Source: a virus
Length of the DNA: 38,228 nt
Strand: one strand, 5' to 3'
IMG/VR virus record: IMGVR_UViG_3300034198_020126
Location: 1-38,228 of that record
Positions 3-38,228 of this stretch are shown piece by piece. The position numbers were made by a program, and so were the translations under genes. The notes beneath the pieces were generated by a model. It did no database searches, was not told the DNA's origin, and saw nothing but the letters and a program-made list of their open reading frames with translations. The stretch's first letter is position 1, and each line of letters starts with the position of its first letter.

Positions 3-146
3 CTCGTGCGCGTGCAGGGCAGTCCTGAATGGAACGAGCATACCTGCGATCTGCCGATCAGCGATGCGCCGAGTGGACTCGGCTCGCGTGAAGTGGACGA
101 GGACGATGGACTCGAATCGCGCACCGAGGCCAAAAATCCACTTTGA
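3..146 (+). CDS. Partial CDS, C-terminal 47 codons, unknown (flanking DNA)
   Basis: The third frame is open from the window edge to a TGA at 144-146. It encodes an acidic tail that ends TEAKNPL. It lies outside the terminal inverted repeat, so it is probably host DNA next to the phage and not a phage gene. Its stop codon coincides with the first TGATCCAACT terminal motif, so the phage end may supply the stop. The family is not recognised. The region around 49-70 also weakly resembles adapter sequence, so even its identity as a natural gene is uncertain. Confidence 0.3.
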   Translation, partial: LVRVQGSPEWNEHTCDLPISDAPSGLGSREVDEDDGLESRTEAKNPL

Positions 147-175
147 TCCAACTTCCCAGGCAGTTTGATCCAACT
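142..175. repeat. Left phage end: two transposase-type motifs plus terminal inverted repeat
   Basis: The 12-mer TTTGATCCAACT occurs at 142-153 and again at 164-175, exactly 22 bp apart, which is the spacing expected of paired MuA-type end sites. Positions 157-175 (CAGGCAGTTTGATCCAACT) are the perfect reverse complement of 38053-38071. The exact cleavage point is not fixed. A Mu-type 5'-TG end could be at 144 or 166, but the inverted repeat extends outward to 157. Confidence 0.8.
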
Positions 176-7557: not shown

Positions 7558-7683
7558 GGGCAGGCGGGGAGTGAAAAGGGGGAAGTGGAAAGTAAAAAGG
7601 GCGGGAGCGGCTGCTGACCTGCGCTTGCGTCTGGCTATCAGCAATCAGCCATCAGCTATTAGCCATCAGCCCCTCCCTCGCCC
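7558..7683. repeat. Spacer made of two dispersed repeat families
   Basis: Positions 7560-7600 are purine-rich on the plus strand (GGGGAAGTGGAAAGTAAAAA). They therefore form a TTTCCACTT-type pyrimidine leader in front of the leftward gene starting at 7557. Positions 7633-7671 are an array of CTATCAGC/CCATCAGC units preceded by GCGCTTGCGTCTGG. The same two families recur in other gaps of this phage. Confidence 0.85.
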
Positions 7684-12561: not shown

Positions 12562-12731
12562 GGAGGCGAAGAGAAAAGGGGGAAGAGAAAAGGGAAAAGG
12601 GAGGGAGCCCGAGAAGTGGCTTGCGTCTGTCTATCAGCTATCAGCCATCAGCTATCAGCTTGCTCATCAGCCTCCCCACCAGCTCCGCGCCGCGCTCTTG
12701 GAGCACGACGCGAAGCGAAGGGTTGAGCGGC
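12562..12731. repeat. Spacer of leader repeat plus GCTGATAG array
   Basis: Positions 12570-12600 are purine-rich (GAAGAGAAAAGGGGGAAGAG). Positions 12619-12670 form a CTATCAGC/CCATCAGC array headed by GCTTGCGTCTGT. The 31 bases 12619-12649 are the exact reverse complement of 32832-32862 in the early arm. No gene is seen in the gap. Confidence 0.9.
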
Positions 12732-15903: not shown

Positions 15904-16332
15904 TCAGTTACTGGGCTCAGTCGTGGCAATGGCTTCGGTGAGCAGCTCGCTGACTTGCTCTTGGGTCATGCCCAGCCCCTCAAAGAAGCTGGCGGCATAG
16001 GCCTGCATCAGGGCGGCCTCCAGGTTGCCGCCGTTGTTCAATGTCGTTTCAATGACGGCGGGCCAGTCGATTTCAATGACTTCGCCACCGCGTTGCAAGG
16101 CCGTTTCAAAGGCATTGATAACGGGCTTTAAATCCATCTGCACCGCCGTGCGAACGCTGGATGTGCTGGGTTGCATTGAGGCATTGCTCGCAGCTTTGGT
16201 GTCCACATCTGCTTCATCATCAGGCGTCTCGTGATGCAATGACTGCCAGTCGGGTGCGCTGCTGAAGGTCACGTCATCAAAGATGGTGGAAGCCATGCGC
16301 TCCTCATCGGTGATTTCAAAGTCGTCTTTCAT
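15904..16332 (-). CDS. Small acidic protein downstream of portal, unknown
   Basis: This 142-aa protein has an acidic, disordered N-terminal half (MKDDFEITDEERMASTIFDD) and a helical C-terminal half (LKPVINAFETALQRGGEVIE, LGMTQEQVSELLTEAIATTE). The C-terminal half resembles the helical tail that ends DUF935-type portals. It overlaps the portal-fusion stop with ATGA. Because the portal's own C-terminus is occupied by a topoisomerase domain, this may be the displaced portal tail or a partner protein; this is inference. Confidence 0.5.
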   Translation of the reverse strand: MKDDFEITDEERMASTIFDDVTFSSAPDWQSLHHETPDDEADVDTKAASNASMQPSTSSVRTAVQMDLKPVINAFETALQRGGEVIEIDWPAVIETTLNNGGNLEAALMQAYAASFFEGLGMTQEQVSELLTEAIATTEPSN

Positions 16333-18497
16333 CGTGCCGCCTCCTTTGCCCTGCTCATCACGCCGCGCTCCACATCGGCGAAGACGAGCGGGTGAATGTA
16401 GTTGTTGAGCGCCATGCTCGCGCCGTTGCCCAGGTCACGCGCCACGATGCCCGCCACTCGCTTCTTAAAGCTCTTGAGTTCCTTCTCGGTCTTGGGCCGC
16501 TCACCGCGCTCAATGAGCTTCTTGGTAATCACATCGGCGTTCGTAGTGCCATACCAGGTGCGCATGTCGTGAACCTTGAATTTGTCGCCGCTGATCTTCT
16601 TCATGTAGCCGAGCGTTTCATCCGCACTGCCATCGAAGATCGTCTCGTTGCCCATGCGCTGCCGCATCGCGATGTGCTTCGCTAGAATCTTGTCGTTGAA
16701 GCTGTGCCGCTGGCGAATGCCTTCCTTGCCGACGAAATCGAGATGCACCTTGTCTCCGTCCACGCGGGCGTGACTGCTGAGCAGCGATGAGGCCCCATAG
16801 GCTTTCACATCACCGCCGCCGCCTTCGCCGCCATTGCGCAGGCCGGTTTTGCTGATCAGCCGCAGTGTGAGTGCCTGGTGCAGGTCATCACCAGCGAGCG
16901 CGATGTCTTCATTGATCTGCTCGCGCAGTTTGGGCATCGCTTTATGGAGCGCGCCGATGCGGGCAAACTTCGCGGCGGCCTGTGATTCCGAATAGGCATC
17001 GCTGTAACCATACTTGCGGCGGCCCTTGTCATCGCGCGCCGTCCACAAAAGATCAGCGCTCGGATCGTCGGTGACTTCAATGTCTTTGAAGGCTGGGGCG
17101 ATGCCGAACTTCTTGCGATCTTCATCGGTGCCTTTGCGCATCGTGCCGCGCTTCGCGTCCGTGCCTTTGCCGCTGCTGCCCTTCTCGGCAAACTTGCCGG
17201 TGATGTCACGCGGGTGAAGGTCTGGATCAAACGCGTTATTATGCTCCACGGTTGGCTTCGTTTGCTTCACATCAGGCTCTTTAGCGGTCGCCTCAATGAG
17301 TGTCTCGGCCTTTGATGGCAACGAATGGGCATATTTCTCAGCCAGACCTTCCTGGGAGAACGGCACACCCTGCCCAATCAGGAAGGTGTCCTTTTGAATT
17401 TCGATCACATCATCTCGGCGCGCTGGCACCTTCAGCTTGAACCAAGCTTGCGGTTGCACGCCTTCCCCGAAAATCTGCGCAATGGCATTTCGCACTAGGC
17501 GGCGGTTGATCGTGTCTTCCACGAAGCGGGCGCTGTTCTCGACGCGGTCGGCGGTGTCGTTGGCTTGCAGGCTTGCGCCCTGCTGATTGTGCTCGGAGCT
17601 GGTGCCGAGATTGCTACCCAGCGCGAGGATGTAGATGGCTTTGCGCATGTCATCGCGCAACGGCTGGAACATGGCGTTGCCCGTCGCGTGCGCGCCAATC
17701 TCGTTAATCTTGGAGCCTGGGCCGGTGATGATGCGGAACCGTGCAGGCAGGTAGGCAAGAGCGGATTCAATCGCGTTCCATTCTTCCGTTCCGGTGCCTT
17801 GGGCTGACTCGGCATGAATGCCCGGCAGACCGAAGCCGCTGTTGTATTCCAGAAGATCCTTGAGGGTGAGGCTGGCAATCATGTGCGCCACTGCCATGCC
17901 CACGCCCAGCGTGCCACCGACCGCGATCAGCCAGTTCTCTTCATCTAGTGGCACACCGCCAACGCCGCCCGAGGGACCGCAGTAGCGCAGCGGCCCGCTG
18001 GCGTTTTCAAAGCAGGCAATCGGCGCGTGCCAGAGCTGGCAAGTCAGCCCGCCATCACCCGGCTGCCAGACGATTTCATGCACATCATAACGCAGCACTT
18101 CAGCGCGCAGGATGTTGTTCACCAGGGCGCGCACCTCGCCGCGATCTTCGGGGATCACTGCATTGCGCACCGTGAGATTCTCGAACAGGAATTGCAGCGC
18201 GGCCTGGTGCCGTTTGGCTTCATTGTCATCCAGGGCCGTCTTGCTGCGGACAATTTCATAGTCTAGGGCGGAAACCGAAGCCCGGCGCTTGGGCACTACA
18301 GCGGCAATGTCCATGTTCGCGCCTTCTTCCAAGCGATCAAAGATCAACGCAAACCGGCGCAGGTAGCCCAGCTCAAACTCATTGATCGCTTGCGTCATGC
18401 CCGAGGGCACCAGACCCGCCAGCGGGTTGCCGCGAGTGATGCGCCACGCTTGCGCGATGGAGGCCTTAGCAATGGAAGGTATCTCGGTGAGTGTCAT
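16329..18497 (-). CDS. Portal (DUF935/gp29-like) fused to type IB topoisomerase domain
   Basis: This 722-aa protein has two parts. Residues 1-410 are a Mu gp29-type portal (YLRRFALIFDRLEEGANMDI, EVLRYDVHEIVWQPGDGG, LTLKDLLEYNSGFGLPG). A linker carries LHPRDITGKFAEKG (about 427-440), a motif typical of fused phage virion proteins. Residues about 465-715 are a type IB topoisomerase catalytic domain: RDDKGRRKYGYSDAY, R554 in SKTGLRNGG, K591 in DFVGKEG, R646 in HDMRTWYGT, N691 and nucleophile Y700 in NNYIHPLVF. Spacings R-K 37, K-R 55 and N-Y 9 fit viral and bacterial TopIB enzymes. It overlaps its downstream neighbour by ATGA. The domain may relieve torsion during packaging or ejection; this is inference. 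Confidence 0.85.
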   Translation of the reverse strand: MTLTEIPSIAKASIAQAWRITRGNPLAGLVPSGMTQAINEFELGYLRRFALIFDRLEEGANMDIAAVVPKRRASVSALDYEIVRSKTALDDNEAKRHQAALQFLFENLTVRNAVIPEDRGEVRALVNNILRAEVLRYDVHEIVWQPGDGGLTCQLWHAPIACFENASGPLRYCGPSGGVGGVPLDEENWLIAVGGTLGVGMAVAHMIASLTLKDLLEYNSGFGLPGIHAESAQGTGTEEWNAIESALAYLPARFRIITGPGSKINEIGAHATGNAMFQPLRDDMRKAIYILALGSNLGTSSEHNQQGASLQANDTADRVENSARFVEDTINRRLVRNAIAQIFGEGVQPQAWFKLKVPARRDDVIEIQKDTFLIGQGVPFSQEGLAEKYAHSLPSKAETLIEATAKEPDVKQTKPTVEHNNAFDPDLHPRDITGKFAEKGSSGKGTDAKRGTMRKGTDEDRKKFGIAPAFKDIEVTDDPSADLLWTARDDKGRRKYGYSDAYSESQAAAKFARIGALHKAMPKLREQINEDIALAGDDLHQALTLRLISKTGLRNGGEGGGGDVKAYGASSLLSSHARVDGDKVHLDFVGKEGIRQRHSFNDKILAKHIAMRQRMGNETIFDGSADETLGYMKKISGDKFKVHDMRTWYGTTNADVITKKLIERGERPKTEKELKSFKKRVAGIVARDLGNGASMALNNYIHPLVFADVERGVMSRAKEAAR

Positions 18498-18503
18498 ATC
18501 TCG

Positions 18504-20222
18504 TTAGGCTCCCATTGAAAAACCCATCCGCTCCGCCAGCCGCCCGAACATGCCGCCCTGCGCAGCGCGCTGCTTCGGTGCCGTGGCATGAATGATCTTG
18601 CAGCCGCCTTGCAAGGCCGTGCCCGCCGCCCGCACCATCAGCGCGGCACTGGTGCAGCCATCACTATGGCCTTCGTCGGAGCGTGGGGCCTTGTAGTTGT
18701 ATTGGCCATTGGTGATCACTTGGGCCATCGAATGAAGATCCTCGCGGAACCATTGGCTGATGGGCACGCGGATGTTGCGCTTATCGAAAGCAAGGCGAAG
18801 CGCGGGGAAGATTTCGCGCTTCAATGGAAGCGTGAAGGTGCACAGTTCCACCTTGCCAAAGAGATGCTTCACCGGGTCATGCTCGCCATAGAGCCTGGCC
18901 AGCTCGTCACCAAAGCCGATGCCGGGGCCGGTGTAGTCCACCACGATGCGGTCGCAAAGATCGAGGTGGGGCTTGAGCGTGCGGACCTGGTCCGGTGTGC
19001 TCATGCCTTTGAGCCGCGTCACGTTGCGCACGATATTGATGCCCAGGCCATTGAGTGCCAGAGTCATCACCGTGGGATCGCTCACGCGACCGAAGTCGAT
19101 GCCTGCCACCTTGCGCAGGGGCGACTGCGCGAGCATCTCGGGCGTGTCGTGCTCGCTGGCTTCCATGCTCTCGCAGCTGGCAATCAGCTCATAGGGCAGC
19201 AGCACGTTGTAACCGTCCAGCCACTCGCAGAGGAACTCTTGCGCCCAGCCTTCGGGATCATCGAGCAAGGCTTCCAGCTTGAGCGGGTTCTGCTTGATGC
19301 CCATCAGCACCGCCTGCCAGATGTTGATAACGCGGGAAGACCAGAGCCCGCTGGTGTCATGCACATACTTATAAGAGGGCGCATTTTTGCCGTTGGGCGT
19401 GGTGATGTAGCGCACCACTTTCTTGCCTGCCTCTTCATTGGCGACCAGGCCGAGCACGGCCTTCATGAACTCCTTGGGATTGTCCACATGGTCACCCTCA
19501 TCAATCACGAGGTTGGCCGTATCGCCGCGCAGTGTCTGCGGCAGGCCGGGCACACCGCGAATGATCGAGCGGTTGCGCAGGGTGATCTTGGTGGAGGTGA
19601 TGAGCGCCTGGGGATGACTGCCATCACGTTCGGTCTCGACTTCGGCGAACTCTTCATCCCAGGCCTCGACCACGTCCTTCACCTTATCGAGCGTGAGCAG
19701 GCTTTGGCGTTCAGAGGGCGAGGTGATCGTCCATCGCGTGAGCGGATGGGCATAGCACTCGGTGCCTACTTTGAGACCAATGACAAAGCCCTTGCCGGTC
19801 TGCCGACTCTGCACATCGCAGATAGCCTCGTGCGGATCGTGATAGCTGACGAACTGATATTGCTTCATCAGCGAGCGCACATCGCTCTCAGGATACGGGT
19901 TCACCCAGCCGTTGACGTTCTCGCCATACTTCGCCGTCGCGTGCAGGGCGATGAGGTCAGCCACCGCCATGCGCAGCAGTGAGTTCGGTGCATCCAGCGC
20001 GGCAGTGATGCGGCTCTTGAGCACTGCCCATTTGGCGCTGGCTTCCTTCATCACCTCAGCCGAGGCGCGGGCCTGCTCCGGCGTCACGGGGTTGCCCCGT
20101 AGCCGTTCCATGGCATCCTTCTGGCGGGTGGTCTTCTTCATGGGTTCAGCGGCAGCCGTGGTCATCACCACCGCCATGAGGGTGGTGAGGAGCAGAGCAA
20201 GGGGATGACGGGTGCATGGCAT
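18504..20222 (-). CDS. Terminase large subunit (gp28-like)
   Basis: The motifs are clear, numbered here from an upstream possible start at 20270: Walker A SRQTGKGF at 155-162, Walker B NLVIDEGD at 253-260, a coupling TTP at about 290-292, and nuclease acidic residues in GIDFGRVSDPT (D392), IVVDYTGPG (D445) and the late DEGHSDG. The preferred start is ATG 20220-20222, giving 572 aa beginning MPCTRHPLALLLTTLMAVVM, again a signal-like hydrophobic segment. If that segment is not translated, ATG 20139-20141 (MKKTTRQKD) would be the start. It lies 6 bp before the portal gene. Confidence 0.85.
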   Translation of the reverse strand: MPCTRHPLALLLTTLMAVVMTTAAAEPMKKTTRQKDAMERLRGNPVTPEQARASAEVMKEASAKWAVLKSRITAALDAPNSLLRMAVADLIALHATAKYGENVNGWVNPYPESDVRSLMKQYQFVSYHDPHEAICDVQSRQTGKGFVIGLKVGTECYAHPLTRWTITSPSERQSLLTLDKVKDVVEAWDEEFAEVETERDGSHPQALITSTKITLRNRSIIRGVPGLPQTLRGDTANLVIDEGDHVDNPKEFMKAVLGLVANEEAGKKVVRYITTPNGKNAPSYKYVHDTSGLWSSRVINIWQAVLMGIKQNPLKLEALLDDPEGWAQEFLCEWLDGYNVLLPYELIASCESMEASEHDTPEMLAQSPLRKVAGIDFGRVSDPTVMTLALNGLGINIVRNVTRLKGMSTPDQVRTLKPHLDLCDRIVVDYTGPGIGFGDELARLYGEHDPVKHLFGKVELCTFTLPLKREIFPALRLAFDKRNIRVPISQWFREDLHSMAQVITNGQYNYKAPRSDEGHSDGCTSAALMVRAAGTALQGGCKIIHATAPKQRAAQGGMFGRLAERMGFSMGA

Positions 20223-20374
20223 GGGGGTCGATTGGCAGGGTGGGGGCGGATTCGTTGCAACGTTTTGCAACGGCTTTGCAAGGGGGTAGAAGGGGCCAGG
20301 GGGGCGTTTCGGGTGTCTTGAGTGCGGGAAGGGGGTCTAGGCGCTTCAAATCGGGTTTTCAGTTTTCGGCGTTA
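20223..20374. other. Gap with GTTGCAACG palindrome
   Basis: Between the small and large terminase genes, 20253-20262 is the perfect palindrome CGTTGCAACG. It is followed closely by TTTTGCAACG and CTTTGCAAG. It could be an operator, a pac-related site or chance; nothing else is recognised here. Confidence 0.3.
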
Positions 20375-23330: not shown

Positions 23331-23390
23331 CGGCTGATAGCTGATAGTTGATAGCTGATTGTCGGAAGCTGATGGCTGATAGCGGATAGA
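23331..23390. repeat. GCTGATAG array
   Basis: The array contains CGGCTGATAGCTGATAGTTG, then ATAGCTGATT, AGCTGATGGCTGATAG and CGGATAG. It belongs to the same family as the arrays at 7633, 12631, 26788, 29190 and 32819. Confidence 0.9.
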
Positions 23391-23486: not shown

Positions 23487-23948
23487 ATGACTACTTCCCC
23501 CTCCGGCATCGCCTTTATTAAAGAGTTCGAAGGCCTCTATCTCAGAGCCTACCAGTGCTCCGCCAACGTGTGGACCATCGGCTACGGCCACACCGGTCTT
23601 CAACACGAGGACGGCACGGTGTATCCAGGCCGCAAGATCACCAAGGCCCAGGCTGACCAGTTACTCGCCTATGACCTGCATCAATACGAGGCCCGCGTGA
23701 ACACCTTCGTGAAAGTGCCACTGAAACAACACGAGTTCGACGCGCTAGTGAGCTTCGATTTCAATACGAACGGCCTCAAAACCAGCACCCTCCTGCGTAA
23801 GCTGAACGCAGGCGACAAAGCCGGGGCGGCTGAACAGTTCGGCGGGTGGAATAAGGTGGACGGCAAACCCATCGCAGGCCTCACCCGCCGCCGAATGTGC
23901 GAGCGCCGCCTCTTCCTCGGCATCACGCCTGCGGTGGTGGAGTTGTAA
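23487..23948 (+). CDS. GH24 lysozyme (endolysin)
   Basis: This 153-aa T4/P21-type muramidase shows the catalytic signature E15-x8-C24-x5-T30 in EGLYLRAYQCSANVWTIGYG, with Cys at the position usually held by Asp or Cys. It has KITKAQADQLLAYDLHQYEA, FDALVSFDFNTNGLKTSTLL and the terminal GLTRRRMCERRLFLGI. There is no signal peptide, so release needs the holin. It is transcribed opposite to the holin-like gene. The stop codon TAA lies inside the R'' box of the attC-like site that follows, the usual arrangement for integron cassettes. Confidence 0.92.
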   Translation: MTTSPSGIAFIKEFEGLYLRAYQCSANVWTIGYGHTGLQHEDGTVYPGRKITKAQADQLLAYDLHQYEARVNTFVKVPLKQHEFDALVSFDFNTNGLKTSTLLRKLNAGDKAGAAEQFGGWNKVDGKPIAGLTRRRMCERRLFLGITPAVVEL

Positions 23949-24034
23949 CGCTGGGGCTCTGCCGACGGCGAGCACAGAGCATAGCTGACACGACAGACGC
24001 CATACGAGCCGTTGGCAGCAGCCCATGGTTAGGG
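23943..24034 (+). repeat. attC: attC-like integron recombination site 1
   Basis: R'' TTGTAAC is at 23943-23949 and R' GTTAGGG is at 24028-24034. The arms form a long imperfect inverted repeat with unpaired bases: left CTGGGGCTCTGCCGACGGC (from 23951) against right GCCGTTGGCAGCAGCCCATG (24009-24028). The centre is a variable 30-40 bp loop region. Overlap of the lysozyme stop with R'' is typical. No matching start box (GTTACAA) was found upstream, so the 5' limit of a lysozyme cassette is unknown. Confidence 0.8.
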
Positions 24035-24085
24035 CTGCGTTGCGTGGCCCGTCACAGTAGCGCCAGCCGACGACCACCGAATAAA

Positions 24086-24131
24086 TATAATTAAATCCGC
24101 TTGCGAAATCAACTGGAGTGTGTAAGCTCCA
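24086..24131 (+). promoter_or_regulatory. AT-rich promoter-like region of cassette A
   Basis: TATAAT at 24086-24091 lies in the only strongly AT-rich patch nearby (AATAAATATAATTAAATCC). It is followed by the small hairpin TGGAG/CTCCA around 24114-24131. A recognisable -35 at the right distance is missing, so this is a weak prediction. Confidence 0.35.
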
Positions 24132-24184
24132 AATGTAGTCAGTAAATCAACCCGCCCCAGCGGCTAATCTGGGACTCACAAAAA

Positions 24185-24646
24185 ATGAAATACAGAATCA
24201 GCGAAGACAGTGGTGCCTCAGAAATCATCGAAGCAGATGACCTCGAATCAGCCGTGGAGGCTGCCAAAGAATGGGCCTCAGAAGGCTCCTACGATGAGCG
24301 AGTGATGGTGTCGGTCTATGTCCAAGGCATCGACGACGATGGCGAGGACACAGACGAATATGAGTCGGCAGAAGTCGAAGCTGGGCCAGAGCCCGAGGCT
24401 CCTGAGTGCGCCGATGGCGAGGAGCACGAGTGGGAATCTCCGCATGAAATCGTCGGCGGACTCAAAGAGAACCCTGGCGTCTGGAGCAAAGGCGGCACCA
24501 CGATGACCTTCCATTCCGTGTGCTGCCACTGCGGCGCACACAAACACGAAACGAGCTACGGCTCGCAGCGTAATCCAGGTCAAGTCGATACTGTGACTTA
24601 TGAGAAAGCGGACGAGGCAACTCTGGAATGGGTAGCAAACCAATGA
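24185..24646 (+). CDS. Cassette A acidic protein, unknown
   Basis: This 153-aa protein is strongly acidic in the first half (SVYVQGIDDDGEDTDEYESA). The second half has HEWESPHEIVGGLKENPGVW and a CCHCGAHKHETSYGS segment that could bind a metal through Cys/His. It begins MKYRISEDSGASEIIEADDL, which resembles small phage or mobile-element proteins with an N-terminal beta hairpin. The leader is AACAAAAAA-like without Shine-Dalgarno. Function is unknown. Confidence 0.75.
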   Translation: MKYRISEDSGASEIIEADDLESAVEAAKEWASEGSYDERVMVSVYVQGIDDDGEDTDEYESAEVEAGPEPEAPECADGEEHEWESPHEIVGGLKENPGVWSKGGTTMTFHSVCCHCGAHKHETSYGSQRNPGQVDTVTYEKADEATLEWVANQ

Positions 24647-24837
24647 GCGCTCCCGAAGGAAACAAGAACGCCAAAAAGCCTGCCGCTGAAAAGCGGCAGG
24701 CTCCGGCCATCTACCTTCGCCCGACTCCAGCCGAGCGGAAGGAAATCATGAAATGGGCACGCGGGCAAAAGCTCTCCCGTGTGTGCATCGCAGCGGTGCT
24801 CTCGGTAGTCCGGGGGACGCCATTCGAGCAGCCCTAA
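24643..24837 (+). CDS. Cassette A small basic protein
   Basis: The ATG at 24643-24645 overlaps the previous stop (ATGA). The 64-aa product starts MSAPEGNKNAKKPAAEKRQ, has a helical region (PTPAERKEIMKWARGQKLSR) and ends in RGTPFEQP. It may be a small DNA-binding protein. Its stop TAA at 24835-24837 falls inside the R'' box CCCTAAC of the second attC. No family is recognised. The coupling suggests it acts with the acidic partner. Confidence 0.7.
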   Translation: MSAPEGNKNAKKPAAEKRQAPAIYLRPTPAERKEIMKWARGQKLSRVCIAAVLSVVRGTPFEQP

Positions 24838-24918
24838 CGCTGAGCTATGACAGCGCCGCGCAAATCTCCGCTTCGTGACAAGACGCTTCCGGCGCTTGTC
24901 ATCAGCGTCTTGTTCATG
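24832..24918 (+). repeat. attC: attC-like integron recombination site 2
   Basis: R'' CCCTAAC is at 24832-24838 and R' GTTCATG at 24912-24918 (cleavage expected after G24912). The left arm GCTGAGCTATGACAGCGCC (24839-24857) is answered by GGCGCTTGTCATCAGCGTC (24891-24909): GCTGA/TCAGC, TGACA/TGTCA and GCGCC/GGCGC pair, with bulged bases as in real attC sites. Alternative stems CAAGACGCT/AGCGTCTTG also exist. Confidence 0.82.
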
Positions 24919-24943
24919 GCCGAATTTCGACGTGTGAAAAATA

Positions 24944-24986
24944 GTTACATTTTCTTCTTGCGCTTGTGTAACGAAAGGTTACTTTC
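24944..24986 (+). promoter_or_regulatory. Operator-like repeats upstream of cassette B genes
   Basis: GTTACA (24944-24949) and TGTAAC (24966-24971) are inverted to each other. GAAAG-GTTA-CTTTC follows at 24973-24986. The stretch is AT-rich compared with its neighbours. This fits an autoregulated promoter bound by the cassette's own HTH protein; this is inference. Confidence 0.35.
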
Positions 24987-25037
24987 CGTGCGTTGCCACT
25001 GAGCGACACCAACACCAACACCAACCAAAATACGAAA

Positions 25038-25358
25038 ATGAAAACACCGACCACATTCGAAATCACCGCCGACCTTGAAGCATTCATGGAACGCGACGGA
25101 GCCAACTACACCGGCAACCTAGTAGTCCGCAGCGAGAAACTCGACGACTACGACATCTACCGCATCAACCTCGAAGGGTATTGGGGTCTCGACTTCGACT
25201 CCCTGACCAACAAGTCGGACAAGCTCGAACTTCCGGAAGCTGCCAACGAAAACAGCGGCGGCTGGACTGGCTGGCTTTGGGAGGAAGTTGAAGGCTTCGC
25301 CGCATGGGCCGAAGAAATGAAGTCACTGGTTCCCGCCACTGAGGAGGAAGAAGAATGA
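25038..25358 (+). CDS. Cassette B acidic protein, possible addiction partner
   Basis: The ATG at 25038 follows an A/C-rich leader (CCAACCAAAATACGAAA). The product is 106 aa. It has beta-rich sequence (TFEITADLEAFMERDGANYT, GNLVVRSEKLDDYDIYRINL), aromatic DFDSLTNKSD and GGWTGWLWEEVEGFAAWA segments and an acidic C-terminus (PATEEEEE). No known toxin family is recognised. It is coupled by ATGA to a small HTH protein, the usual order of cassette-borne toxin-antitoxin or regulator pairs. Confidence 0.7.
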   Translation: MKTPTTFEITADLEAFMERDGANYTGNLVVRSEKLDDYDIYRINLEGYWGLDFDSLTNKSDKLELPEAANENSGGWTGWLWEEVEGFAAWAEEMKSLVPATEEEEE

Positions 25359-25531
25359 GCCCCGAGGAATACAAAGCGATCCGCGAAAAGCTCGCCCTCA
25401 CGCAGGGCGGGCTTGCCGCCGTCCTCGGCGTCTCGCGGAAAACCGTGAACGCTAGGGAGAACGGCCAAACGCCAATCACGCACGAAGCGGCGCTTGCGAT
25501 CCGCGCACTCAAACCAAAACGCGCCAATTGA
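25355..25531 (+). CDS. Small XRE/Cro-type HTH protein
   Basis: This 58-aa protein reads MSPEEYKAIREKLALTQGGL, then AAVLGVSRKTVNARENGQTP and ITHEAALAIRALKPKRAN: a canonical five-helix HTH (LTQGGLAAVLGVSRKTVNARE). It has a real Shine-Dalgarno-like GAGGAGGAAG 4 bp before the ATG, unusual for this phage and consistent with foreign origin. It probably autoregulates the cassette pair; an antitoxin role is possible. Confidence 0.85.
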   Translation: MSPEEYKAIREKLALTQGGLAAVLGVSRKTVNARENGQTPITHEAALAIRALKPKRAN

Positions 25532-25532
25532 A

Positions 25533-25580
25533 GGCCATGAACAGTGTATTGAACAACCAGCCTTCGTCTAATTCATGAAC
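25533..25580 (+). repeat. Half attC / attI-like region before the integrase
   Basis: GGCCATGAAC (25533-25542) is the R'' of cassette B. A second CATGAAC follows 38 bp later at 25574-25580, spanning the integrase start codon and followed by GCTCAGC, which resembles the GCTGAGC after the R'' of attC2. No partner R' (GTTRRRY) arm is visible. It may be a truncated attC or an unusual attI. Confidence 0.45.
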
Positions 25581-26582
25581 GCTCAGCAGGTCCAACCGCA
25601 CCAGAAACCCGGCCTCGTTGCGGCATTCCGGCGCGTGGCAGCAACGGGCAAGCATGGCGTGCGACCACTGGCGAAGAAGACCGTGGAGACCTACCTCTTT
25701 TGGCTGCACCGCTTTGCCACGTCCACGGGCAAGGGAGCACGGCAGTGGATGGGCGACGATGTGGAGGCGTTCCTGTGGCAGCTGCACCGCGAGCGCTATG
25801 CGCCGAAGTCACGCAAGCAGGCGCTGTGCGCCTTGGTGTTCGTGTTCAAGAACGTCCTCGGCGTCGATGTGGGCACGCTGAACTTGCCCGCTATGCCAAA
25901 GGAACAACCCACGATTAAGATCATCCCGTCACGCGGTGAGATCGCTCGCATTTTTGCCGGGCTGCGCGGGCAGGCGCGAGTGATGGCGGGGCTGCTGTAT
26001 GGCTCGGGCCTGCGCGTCAATGAATGCTGTATGCTGCGGGTGAAGGATGTTGACTTTGAGTCGATGACCATCCGCGTGCATGAGGGCAAGGGGAACAAAG
26101 ATCGCCTGTGCCTGTTGCCGGTGAATCTGGTGGATGCCTTGCAGCGGCAGATTGGCTGGAGGGCGGCACTGCATGAGACGGACCTCAACCAAGGCGCTGG
26201 GTATGTGGAGATACCGGGCCGCATGGCGATCAAGGATAAGGGCGCAGCGCGGGATCTGCGCTGGCAGTTCCTCTTTGCCTCTGCTGCGGTGCGTGGGGTC
26301 TATCGCTGGCACACCACGCCCGAAATGATTCAGGGCTCGCTACGCAAAGCCGTGAAGGCGGCGGGCATTCTGAAGCGAGTAACCCCGCACACTCTGCGGC
26401 ACGCCTACTGCACGCACTCCATCCAGGCCGGTGTGGACGTGCCCACCGTGCAGGCCTTGATGGGACACGATGACATGGAGACAACCCAAGGCTATGCCCA
26501 CGCTGATAAGGCGCGGGGGTTCTCGCCTCTGGATGTGACTGAGCGTGTTGTCGTTCACTCACCCTTGGCCTGGGCCTCATGA
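25575..26582 (+). CDS. intI: Integron-type tyrosine recombinase (IntI-like)
   Basis: This 335-aa protein has all the catalytic residues: R147 in YGSGLRVNE, K172 in HEGKGNKDR, H272 and R275 in TPHTLRHAY, H298 in LMGHDD and Y307 in TTQGYAHAD. The extra segment between about 208 and 250 (GYVEIPGRMAIKDKGAARDL, RWQFLFASA, YRWHTTPEM) is the feature that separates integron integrases from XerC/D. The C-terminus FSPLDVT also matches IntI proteins. It reads in the same direction as the cassettes and lies at their far end, unlike classical integrons. Confidence 0.9.
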   Translation: MNAQQVQPHQKPGLVAAFRRVAATGKHGVRPLAKKTVETYLFWLHRFATSTGKGARQWMGDDVEAFLWQLHRERYAPKSRKQALCALVFVFKNVLGVDVGTLNLPAMPKEQPTIKIIPSRGEIARIFAGLRGQARVMAGLLYGSGLRVNECCMLRVKDVDFESMTIRVHEGKGNKDRLCLLPVNLVDALQRQIGWRAALHETDLNQGAGYVEIPGRMAIKDKGAARDLRWQFLFASAAVRGVYRWHTTPEMIQGSLRKAVKAAGILKRVTPHTLRHAYCTHSIQAGVDVPTVQALMGHDDMETTQGYAHADKARGFSPLDVTERVVVHSPLAWAS

Positions 26583-26791
26583 AGCCCAAGCCCAAACCGC
26601 CAGCCAAGAAGTGGCCGAAGATCGTGCCGGTAATCGTGCCTGCTCCGCCGCCGTGTGAGCCGGTGCTGTTGTCAAAGCCTTTGCCATGCCGTTGCAAAGG
26701 AACGGTCGCCGTTCGTGGTGGCGGCTCGGATCTGTGGAGCTGCCCCTGCGGGAAGACTTACACAACGAAGCAGCTGGCGGCTTATCGGTGA
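26579..26791 (+). CDS. Small zinc-ribbon protein coupled to the integrase
   Basis: This 70-aa protein overlaps the integrase stop by ATGA. It has a Lys/Pro-rich N-terminus (MKPKPKPPAKKWPKIVPVIV), then CRCKGTVAVRGGGSDLWSCP with CGK, a four-cysteine zinc-ribbon pattern (C-x-C ... C-x-C). It ends KQLAAYR. It could bind DNA or be a small partner of the integrase; this is inference from coupling alone. Confidence 0.65.
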   Translation: MKPKPKPPAKKWPKIVPVIVPAPPPCEPVLLSKPLPCRCKGTVAVRGGGSDLWSCPCGKTYTTKQLAAYR

Positions 26792-26836
26792 TAGCTGATA
26801 GCTGATGGCTGATGGCTGATAGTGGAAAGAGGAAAG
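26788..26836. repeat. GCTGATAG array plus GGAAAG
   Basis: GGTGATAGCTGATAGCTGAT is followed by GGCTGATGGCTGATAG, then GTGGAAAGAGGAAAGC. The segment separates the integron module from the leftward accessory genes. Confidence 0.9.
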
Positions 26837-29176: not shown

Positions 29177-29189
29177 TCTACCTCCCCTC

Positions 29190-29217
29190 TATCAGCTATC
29201 GACCATCAGCTATCAGC
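29190..29217. repeat. Short CTATCAGC array
   Basis: TATCAGCTATCGACCATCAG then CTATCAGC lies immediately upstream of the HTH gene. It is the opposite orientation of the GCTGATAG family. Confidence 0.85.
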
Positions 29218-32818: not shown

Positions 32819-32862
32819 ATGGCTGATAGTCGATGGCTGATAGCTGATAGACAGACGCAAGC
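32819..32862. repeat. GCTGATAG array with 31-bp match to the late arm
   Basis: ATGGCTGATAGTCGATGGCT then GATAGCTGATAGACAGACGC. Positions 32832-32862 are the exact reverse complement of 12619-12649. A CAACCTCAACC leader follows before the next gene. Confidence 0.95.
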
Positions 32863-34815: not shown

Positions 34816-36996
34816 ATGACCAAAGCCCTCGCCATCACCTCTGACTTGCCCCTGCCTCTCACGGACGACGAACGCCGTGCATTGAGTAATCGCCAGCGCA
34901 CGAAGTTGGCTCGCGACGTGGCGATGTGTAAGGCGGTGGCGGAGCTGCTGCGCACTGGGGCGGTGAAGTCGAAAGAAATGGCCTTCTCCAAGGTGTGGAG
35001 TGATACGGGCGTGGGCTCGTTCATGTCGCTGAAACGGAAGTTCAACGCCTGGGCAAAGGGCGGCGAGCGGGCGATCATAGATCACGCGATGTGCGGGACG
35101 GTGAGCTGTGGCTTTCCTGAGTGTGGCAACCGCGACCGGGCCTCGCTCCTGCCCACGGAAGTGCTGTCCTACTGGGTGCAGCTGGTGGCGAGCAACACGT
35201 CTCTGCAACGCAAGGGTGTGCGCTCGCAGCGATGGGGCTATAATGAGCTGTGGAACCGGCTGGCAAAGGGGGAAATCATCCCCGGCTATGGCGATTGGCG
35301 GCGGGTCTGGCGGGACTCGCATCACGGCGACGAACGCACGCCGGAGACGTGCACGATGAGTGCCGCGCTGCCGCCTCGCGGGTGGACCTTTGGCAATTTC
35401 CTGGCGCAGCGTGATCGTGTGGCTTCGCTGGCGGAAATCGAGGCCGCGCAGCGGGGCCTGGGACAGGTGATCAAATCGCTGCCGATGGTGCGCCGTGACT
35501 GGGGCGCGCTACGCATCGGCGAGGCACTGTTCATTGATGACTGGCAGCCGGATGTTGAAACGTGGCTGGAGGTGGATGGTGTGCCGCAACTGGTGCGTGC
35601 TGCGGCCCTGGTGATGATGGACGCGGCAACTCGCCGCATCGTGGGCTTTCGCCTGTATCCGCAGTTCCTCCGCAAGGATGGCACGCGGCAGGGAATCGAG
35701 CGCCGCCATGTGCAGCATTTGATCGCTCACTACCTGGCCACCGTGGGCGTGCCGCGTGGCTATGAGTGCGAGCTGGTGTGTGAGAACGCAACGGCGGCGA
35801 TCACGGATGAATTTGAGACGATTTTGACGCGGCGTTTCCCGAATCTGAACATCCGCCGGCAGGGGCTGCACATTGGCGACGGTGGGGTGATTTCCCGCAT
35901 CGACCACACGGCCAGCAACTCGAACGCGAAGAGCCTCATTGAAGGGTGGTTTAATCGGGTGAATAAAGAGCTGGGTCATGTGCGTGGTCAGCTGGGCAGC
36001 AACTACCTGCTGAAGGCTGCGGATCAGGAGGCTCGTGAACGTCGCGGCGAGCTGGTGATTCGCGCTGTGGGGAGTGTGCTCACGGAGTCGCAATTGACGA
36101 CGCTGATGCCGCTCGATCACTTCGAAGAAACCGTGCAGCACATCGCCGCCGCCGTGCATCGTTTGGAGACGAATTCAGACCATGAAATGCAGGGCTTCCG
36201 CCGCGTGATGAAATGGCGCTACGGGCCGGGGGATTCGGAGTGGAAAAGCATGGGCCACGGGGATCTTCTTTCGATGCGTGAAGAGCTGGGCATGGATGCG
36301 GTGAATAAGTTCCTCCGTGGGGACGGTCGCAGCACCTCGGAAATGGAGACGGTGCGGGAGCGCTGGGCCTCGCTCTATCAGGCGGAAAATTTCGAGCGCC
36401 TGGGGCCTGCGGACTTCTGGTCGATCTGGTGTGATGTGGCCACGGCGAAGGTGTCCGGTGACGGCACGCTGACGGCGAAACTTTCGCGGGGAAGGTCGTT
36501 CGAATTTCACCAGTTCCAAGGCCTGCGCCGACTGGTCACAGGCGAGAAAATCGCGGTGCGTTTCGATGCGGATCATCCGGCGAACGGCTGTGCGCTGCAA
36601 GATGCCGATGGCCGCGTGATTGGCTCGATGAAACTGCGCGAACGCTGGCAGACTGCTGACGAGCTGAACGAGCAACTCGGCGAGAAGATGGCGGCAGAGA
36701 AAACGATGCTGGAACGCCTGGCCCGCGCCCATGGAAATGGTCGCCTCGCTGCCGCTGAACTGAGCGCTGTGCAGTCTCGTGTGAAGACGCTGGAAATGGT
36801 CGGCGAAATTGCCTTGCCACCCGTGGCCGCTGCGAGCGCCGAGGCGGCTGATCTTGAGGCCGAAATGGAGAGCCAAGAAGTGACCCGCCGCGCCTCTCAA
36901 AAGAAGGCCACCACTGCCGCCGAACGCGAGGCCAAAGCCGCCGCCGCTCGCGCTGATTTTCTCGCCGCCCGTAAACTCCAAATCCAACCTGTATGA
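34816..36996 (+). CDS. MuA-like DDE transposase
   Basis: This 726-aa protein has an N-terminal DNA-binding region (residues 1-200, HTH-like, with a Cys cluster CGTVSCGFPECG at about 93-104). The catalytic domain at about 225-400 has D241/D242 in LFIDDWQPDVETW, E323 in LVCENATAAI and E376 in SLIEGWFNRVNKEL. The MuA-type beta barrel follows and then a basic, Ala-rich C-terminal helix for ATPase contact. Spacing 323-376 (53) fits MuA 336-392 (56). Glu at the second position, normally Asp, is unusual. It overlaps the ATPase gene by 4 bp. Confidence 0.9.
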   Translation: MTKALAITSDLPLPLTDDERRALSNRQRTKLARDVAMCKAVAELLRTGAVKSKEMAFSKVWSDTGVGSFMSLKRKFNAWAKGGERAIIDHAMCGTVSCGFPECGNRDRASLLPTEVLSYWVQLVASNTSLQRKGVRSQRWGYNELWNRLAKGEIIPGYGDWRRVWRDSHHGDERTPETCTMSAALPPRGWTFGNFLAQRDRVASLAEIEAAQRGLGQVIKSLPMVRRDWGALRIGEALFIDDWQPDVETWLEVDGVPQLVRAAALVMMDAATRRIVGFRLYPQFLRKDGTRQGIERRHVQHLIAHYLATVGVPRGYECELVCENATAAITDEFETILTRRFPNLNIRRQGLHIGDGGVISRIDHTASNSNAKSLIEGWFNRVNKELGHVRGQLGSNYLLKAADQEARERRGELVIRAVGSVLTESQLTTLMPLDHFEETVQHIAAAVHRLETNSDHEMQGFRRVMKWRYGPGDSEWKSMGHGDLLSMREELGMDAVNKFLRGDGRSTSEMETVRERWASLYQAENFERLGPADFWSIWCDVATAKVSGDGTLTAKLSRGRSFEFHQFQGLRRLVTGEKIAVRFDADHPANGCALQDADGRVIGSMKLRERWQTADELNEQLGEKMAAEKTMLERLARAHGNGRLAAAELSAVQSRVKTLEMVGEIALPPVAAASAEAADLEAEMESQEVTRRASQKKATTAAEREAKAAAARADFLAARKLQIQPV

Positions 36997-38051: not shown

Positions 38052-38052
38052 A

Positions 38053-38071
38053 AGTTGGATCAAACTGCCTG
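38053..38071. repeat. Right phage end, terminal inverted repeat
   Basis: AGTTGGATCAAACTGCCTG is the perfect reverse complement of 157-175. The second, outer copy seen on the left (TTTGATCCAACT) is absent here; only CTAGTTTC remains at the equivalent distance. A Mu-type CA could end at 38062, but symmetry argues for 38071. Confidence 0.85.
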
Positions 38072-38205: not shown

Positions 38206-38228
38206 AGATCGGAAGTGCGTCGTGAAGG
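38206..38228. other. Likely sequencing-adapter remnant at contig end
   Basis: The final 23 bases begin AGATCGGAAG and continue GCGTCGTG with single substitutions at two positions relative to the standard Illumina TruSeq read-2-side adapter (21 of 23 identical by eye). This suggests the window ends at an untrimmed contig edge and not at a natural boundary. Confidence 0.75.

Follow-up and report, generated by a model that had tools for sequence, protein, structure and literature searches.

An integron with inverted cassette genes in the genome of a Mu-like transposable phage

Introduction

Integrons are usually treated as bacterial platforms that are occasionally picked up by phages. In this article, I describe an integron inside a Mu-like transposable phage, the IMG/VR virus record IMGVR_UViG_3300034198_020126 (the whole record of 38,228 bases, hereafter the window), in which the cassette genes lie inverted relative to their attC sites. 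It is the inversion that is new, while phage-borne integrons as such are already known: Qi et al. (2023; PMC9892861) described integrons and attC clusters (CALINs) in phage genomes and demonstrated recombination between phage attC sites and attI1. A preliminary description of the window, made from the letters alone, had recognized the integron within the phage, and this has stood, whereas its supposition that no phage-borne example was established was wrong in view of that report and of the IMG/VR matches to IntI relatives, which number at least 249, and the inversion of the cassette genes had escaped it. The integrons of Qi et al. resemble this one in having IntI, attI (in the window an attI-like junction) and attC inside phage genomes, but the complete ones were host-derived, of class 1 or part of a cryptic prophage, with none described in an intact transposable phage, and cassette inversion was not reported there. 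A literature search, which did not cover preprints and many subscription journals, found nothing on inverted cassettes in phages.

Class 1 and 2 integrons and the sedentary chromosomal ones share with the window the IntI family, the fold and polarity of attC, an attI (an attI-like junction in the window) beside the start of intI, and an intI divergent from the polarity of the array; in these, however, attC and the genes share one direction, which leads away from intI, whereas in the window the genes are opposed to their attC sites and lead into intI. The reverse integrons of the Treponema type (PMC3607928) and phage Rctr41k resemble the window in that intI and the cassette genes are co-directional. 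Yet in both of these intI is directed at attI and the genes have the sense orientation of attC, while in the window intI is directed away from attI and the genes are turned round inside the cassettes; Rctr41k, with its array downstream of intI and its genes sense, arrives at co-direction by a route other than the window's. Two IntI phages, Rctr41k (L008; KX853513) and L070, have this Treponema-like layout, with a downstream attC array of plus polarity.

Anatomy of the integron

The features of the locus, read from intI towards the lysozyme gene at the edge of the array, are:

25575..26582, plus: intI, integron integrase of 335 aa
25541..25574, minus: attI-like junction directly upstream of intI, crossover G|TT on the minus strand at 25542|25541
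24838..25541, minus polarity: cassette 1, 704 bp, genes on plus, G|TT at 25542|25541 and 24838|24837
25355..25531, plus: cassette 1 gene b, 58-aa XRE-type helix-turn-helix (HTH) protein, overlapping gene a, inverted relative to attC
24993..25358, plus: cassette 1 gene a, coding for an acidic protein of 106-121 aa with ATG at 25038 as the likely start, inverted relative to attC
24832..24922, minus: attC2, the attC of cassette 1
23949..24837, minus polarity: cassette 2, 889 bp, genes on plus, G|TT at 24838|24837 and 23949|23948
24628..24837, plus: cassette 2 gene b, open reading frame (ORF) of 69 aa, overlapping gene a
24185..24646, plus: cassette 2 gene a, 153 aa, C-terminal part rich in Cys and His, inverted relative to attC
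23946..24040 (end approximate), minus: attC1, the attC of cassette 2 and end of the array
23487..23948, plus: phage lysozyme (PF00959, 1.5e-43)

That the recombinase is of the IntI type with all catalytic residues, as first proposed, was confirmed by family models, solved structures, alignment and phylogeny alike. It scores 259.7 bits against the integron integrase family TIGR02249 and 154 bits against the next family, XerA, and its best solved relative is VchIntIA (PDB 2a3v, E 7e-47), followed by a XerC-like structure at 3e-27. Aligned with IntI1, IntI2 and Vibrio IntIA, it keeps R147, K172, H272, R275, H298 and Y307 as well as the IntI-specific insert with W230. A scan of viral contigs with the single protein sequence returned no relatives and an alignment-based scan was needed to obtain the IMG/VR matches, the best 80 of which were kept and placed in a tree with the window IntI and 37 IntIs from bacteria or named phage or plasmid records (38 bacterial rows without a cleanly recovered integrase frame were left out). 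There, the window IntI forms a supported lineage with the IMG/VR sequences L014 and L015 (Shimodaira-Hasegawa-like approximate likelihood ratio test, SH-aLRT, 98) and groups with integron integrases and other phage-contig IntIs rather than with Xer. In the same tree (entry L016, G006), 55 IMG/VR IntIs share a clade (99) with class 1 IntI1, whose nearest neighbors there are the IntI of a Mu-like phage (95) and one bacterial IntI under thin bacterial sampling, and the class 1 integrase may descend from a phage-associated IntI clade.

The attC sites were sought in two ways. One was a grammar scan of both strands for AAC, a bulged stem and GTT, with complementarity between R'' and the cassette's own start; over the whole window it ranked attC1 first and attC2 second, both on the minus strand (23.6 and 23.4), followed by the plus-strand mirror reading of attC2, while the best of 60 dinucleotide shuffles scored 22.6 and none reached 23. 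The other was a covariance model built from 22 attC sites, bacterial ones only, which matched 24832-24919 at 19.9 bits and 23946-24031 at 19.4 bits, again both on the minus strand, and whose next best match in the 38 kb had 9.3 bits, so that these sites do not score as background. Both have the R''-L''-L'-R' structure with extrahelical bases. The two sites first proposed, at 23943-24034 and 24832-24918, are thus real, but their polarity had to be corrected to minus and their extents lengthened, attC1 running to about 24040 and attC2 to 24922. Bottom-strand folding, which had been suggested as a check, would not have settled their identity, since the single-strand folding energy is weak on its own (z -1.3 to -1.8). 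A search of the window against Rfam returned no match.

The two cassette-sized units seen earlier proved to be cassettes by a stricter measure, because the start of a cassette that has existed as a closed circle must match the R'' of that cassette. For cassette 2 the start GTTAGGGCTGC is the exact reverse complement of its R'' GCAGCCCTAAC over 11 nt, and for cassette 1 the start GTTCATGGCC, at 25542-25533 on the minus strand, is that of GGCCATGAAC over 10 nt, so that both cassettes pass, with G|TT boundaries; in simulation, seven bases beyond GTT agree by chance in about 5e-5 of pairs. A separate repeat search recovered the same boundary pairs. The junction at 25542|25541 would be attI, being simple, about 33 nt upstream of intI and with no attC hairpin on the intI side. 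The lysozyme gene, whose stop falls in the R' box of attC1, was considered as a third cassette and rejected, as no attC lies on its far (left) side.

Cassette genes that run against their attC sites

In control arrays (class 2, Shewanella and Vibrio), sense cassettes carry the extra bases in the left arm of attC, and by this rule (attC2 has three such bases) as well as by the covariance model both attC sites of the window have minus polarity and point away from intI, like those of bacteria. The four cassette genes, by contrast, all lie on the plus strand, against their own attC, towards attI and into intI, and are therefore flipped inside their cassettes; reading from Pc at attI, the usual though not the defining arrangement of integrons, would need the opposite orientation. 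Judged by their sequences these are real genes, because there are plasmid homologues on the same strand, an HTH protein and agreeing codon statistics. The C-terminal half of the cassette 2 gene a product has homologues in Thioalkalivibrio and Pelobacter plasmids (its predicted fold is confident for residues 1-70 only), the cassette 1 gene b product matches HTH families, and the codon model is strongly in favor of plus for cassette 1 gene a (44.5 vs -18), which belongs to no family; searches of IMG/VR and plasmids for relatives of the cassette 1 protein found none. The stop codon TAA of cassette 2 gene b is the TTA of the minus-strand GTTA.

The inversion extends well beyond the window. Orientation was called in all arrays by one pipeline using a codon model matched for GC plus Pfam matches, which replaced longest-ORF calls (unreliable in GC-rich cassettes) and a codon model trained on GC-rich sequence (which failed on AT-rich controls). 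In the bacterial controls, 20 GTDB genomes and the reference arrays L005 and L006, 46 cassettes were sense and 1 inverted at sites of minus polarity, with 3 more inverted at sites of plus polarity; in the IntI-bearing IMG/VR contigs, window included, 87 were inverted and 9 sense. Of 50 IntI contigs, 28 have a terminase or Mu portal, and this subset gave 51 inverted to 6 sense; some contigs without a detected terminase may be fragments or not viral. These are counts of cassettes and not of independent events, near-duplicate contigs being included (e.g. L035/L039, L038/L040), and counted by contig, 34 have an inverted majority and 4 a sense majority. Four contigs examined gene by gene carry between them terminases, major head proteins, tail proteins, primases and endolysins. 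The strand of the genes is confirmed without codon statistics by Pfam domains on plus-strand cassette ORFs (MethyltransfD12, N6_N4_Mtase, and DUF5131 at 2e-75), and the polarity of the arrays is as in bacteria, with attC sites upstream of intI and 75 of 77 covariance matches in 21 phage loci on the strand opposite intI. Since this arrangement is found repeatedly in diverse phage contigs, it points to a phage type of integron and not to a bacterial integron stranded in one phage. No clean arrays were obtained for the phage CALINs of TJE1 and P12002L with a scanner tuned to compact attC sites with an own-start match.

Related contigs also bear on whether such arrays move. L031 and L032 have identical intI genes and a common flank of 6.5 kb at 99.985% identity, while between the same two G|TT points (AAG|TT at attI and TGCG|TT at the array end) one carries 414 bp and the other 1300 bp; L035 and L036 have flanks and cassettes in common and differ by whole-cassette blocks. 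As compared at the sequence level, both differences match what integrase-mediated exchange predicts, and since in two near-identical contigs the replacement at G|TT is exact to the cassette, such phage arrays are to be regarded as recombining in nature. In two other contigs (L063 1552-1756 and L066 6649-6895), tandem 42-bp repeats that differ in copy number lie inside a DNA methylase cassette gene.

How the integron would work, and what else it could be

The window very probably holds a complete integron of phage type, whose cassettes would be transcribed together with intI from a phage promoter. As read from its anatomy, cassettes would be captured and excised through IntI-mediated recombination between the folded attC strand and attI at G|TT. 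The genes being inverted relative to attC, they would be read towards attI and on into intI, and transcription would thus enter from the lysozyme side, starting at a phage promoter located upstream, within the lysis region, and not at a Pc at attI, so that integrase and cargo are expressed as one unit under common phage control and newly captured cassettes join at its downstream end. Several observations weigh against this account: a sigma-70 scan of the plus strand found no promoter; the TIGR02249 score falls 5 bits short of the curated cut-off of 265; the attC sites score about 20 bits where many phage relatives reach 25-56, and have off-consensus boxes (CATGAAC as R'' of attC2, GTTACAA as R' of attC1); no relative of the window's own phage with other cassettes was found; and the control genomes are all Pseudomonadota, so that the inversion could partly follow host lineage.

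The modest scores and off-consensus boxes, together with an array of two cassettes only, would suit a genuine integron that has decayed and lost recombination, which I consider unlikely given that intI is intact with all catalytic residues and that both cassettes still pass the own-start test, which would be expected to decay without selection or recent insertion. An ordinary sense array, with attC sites facing plus, normal cassettes and intI merely at the far end, is very improbable: the plus reading of attC2 does score, and cassette boundaries can be read either way because R' and R'' are mutual reverse complements, but the bacterial attC model matches the minus strand only, the left arm on minus holds the extra bases, as it does in sense control sites, the GC that precedes GTT in the controls is found on minus at both sites, and the intI-proximal junction without an attC hairpin looks like an attI.

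Nor is it at all likely that a bacterial integron has merely been juxtaposed with phage DNA through an assembly error or as host flank beside a prophage. There are precedents, the Vibrio 'phage' integrons p16/p42 being pieces of the host superintegron and several IMG/VR IntIs lying at contig ends, but here the integron is interior, 12 kb inside the right end and between the terminal repeats, adjoining the lysozyme gene and with phage genes on both sides; intI is internal in contigs G017, G022 and G044 too, and gene inversion sets the phage-contig arrays apart from bacterial ones. Phages often use tyrosine recombinases, and further integrase matches occur in the contigs examined gene by gene, so IntI could be imagined as the phage's own integration and excision enzyme with the attC-like sites as its att sites or remnants; this is the least probable of the alternatives, since the phage has probable transposition genes and terminal repeats, the attC pairs bound gene-bearing units, and related contigs turn over cassette by cassette.

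Because the window and most of the related virus contigs tested carry cassette genes opposite to the bacterial direction, it would seem that phages maintain a shuffled gene pool of their own. Whether this amounts to a long-standing integron class of their own, defined by the inversion, with a separate and actively shuffled gene pool to which DNA methylases and many small unknown proteins belong, I regard as evenly balanced. In such a class the recombination chemistry would be shared with bacterial cassettes, while neither platform would readily express the cassettes of the other: Pc would not read an inverted gene placed in a bacterial integron, a sense cassette carried by the phage would lie antisense to the operon, and selection on expression would keep the two pools apart. 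If a recurrent phage type with flipped genes is true, recombination polarity and expression polarity are separable, phages assemble gene sets through site-specific capture, and it is the direction of expression and not recombination that divides phage from bacterial cassette pools. The origin of cassettes and of mobile IntIs would then become a directly testable question, and annotation pipelines that assume sense genes will misread inverted phage arrays.

The surrounding phage genome

The assignment to a Mu-like transposable phage, proposed from the outset, is borne out by the terminal inverted repeats, the Mu-type portal and a related terminase:

142..175, plus: left terminal repeat of the transposable phage (TTTGATCCAACTT; CAGGCAGTTTGATCCAACT)
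16329..18497, minus: Mu-type portal fused to a topoisomerase IB domain (PF06074 3e-32, PF01028 8e-17)
18504..20270, minus: terminase large subunit, nearest to B3-like transposable siphophages
34816..36996, plus: probable transposase A, no family match, with a relative in the IntI contig L015/G005
36993..38051, plus: MuB-like transposition ATPase (phrog_296, 1.6e-5, a weak match)
38052..38071, minus: right terminal inverted repeat

The inverted pair of CAGGCAGTTTGATCCAACT lies at 157-175 and 38053-38071. The window resembles the Mu/B3-like transposable siphophages B3, RhkS_P1, ThpS-P1 and AFS-2018a in its terminase and portal relatives, probable transposition genes and length of about 38 kb, but differs in that its probable transposase is too divergent for family models; the rve family expected of a MuA-type transposase was not found. 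No integron is known in these four phages. No IntI was found in the examined parts of three contigs (L002-L004) whose terminases are 39-60% identical to that of the window, and the integron is therefore probably an accessory acquisition of this phage.

In the portal fusion, the topoisomerase domain occupies approximately residues 463-707 (PDB 2f4q, 6e-19), and the relatives in L002 and L003 match the portal part alone. Among the IntI contigs, the terminase frames of G018, G049, G010, G461, G038, G029 and G028 are interrupted by in-frame stops, seven in G028 and a single TGA or TAA in each of the others, which could reflect introns, recoding or decay. The end of the window (38206-38228, AGATCGGAAGTGCGTCGTGAAGG) resembles an Illumina adapter and is probably an assembly artefact outside the phage end. 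Finally, tandem repeats of the heptamers GCTGATA/GCTGATG are scattered over the window (19 matches vs 0.02 expected), at 7635-7670, 12631-12659, 23333-23389, 26787-26822, 29189-29217 and 32836-32850, and two of them flank the lysozyme-integron block.

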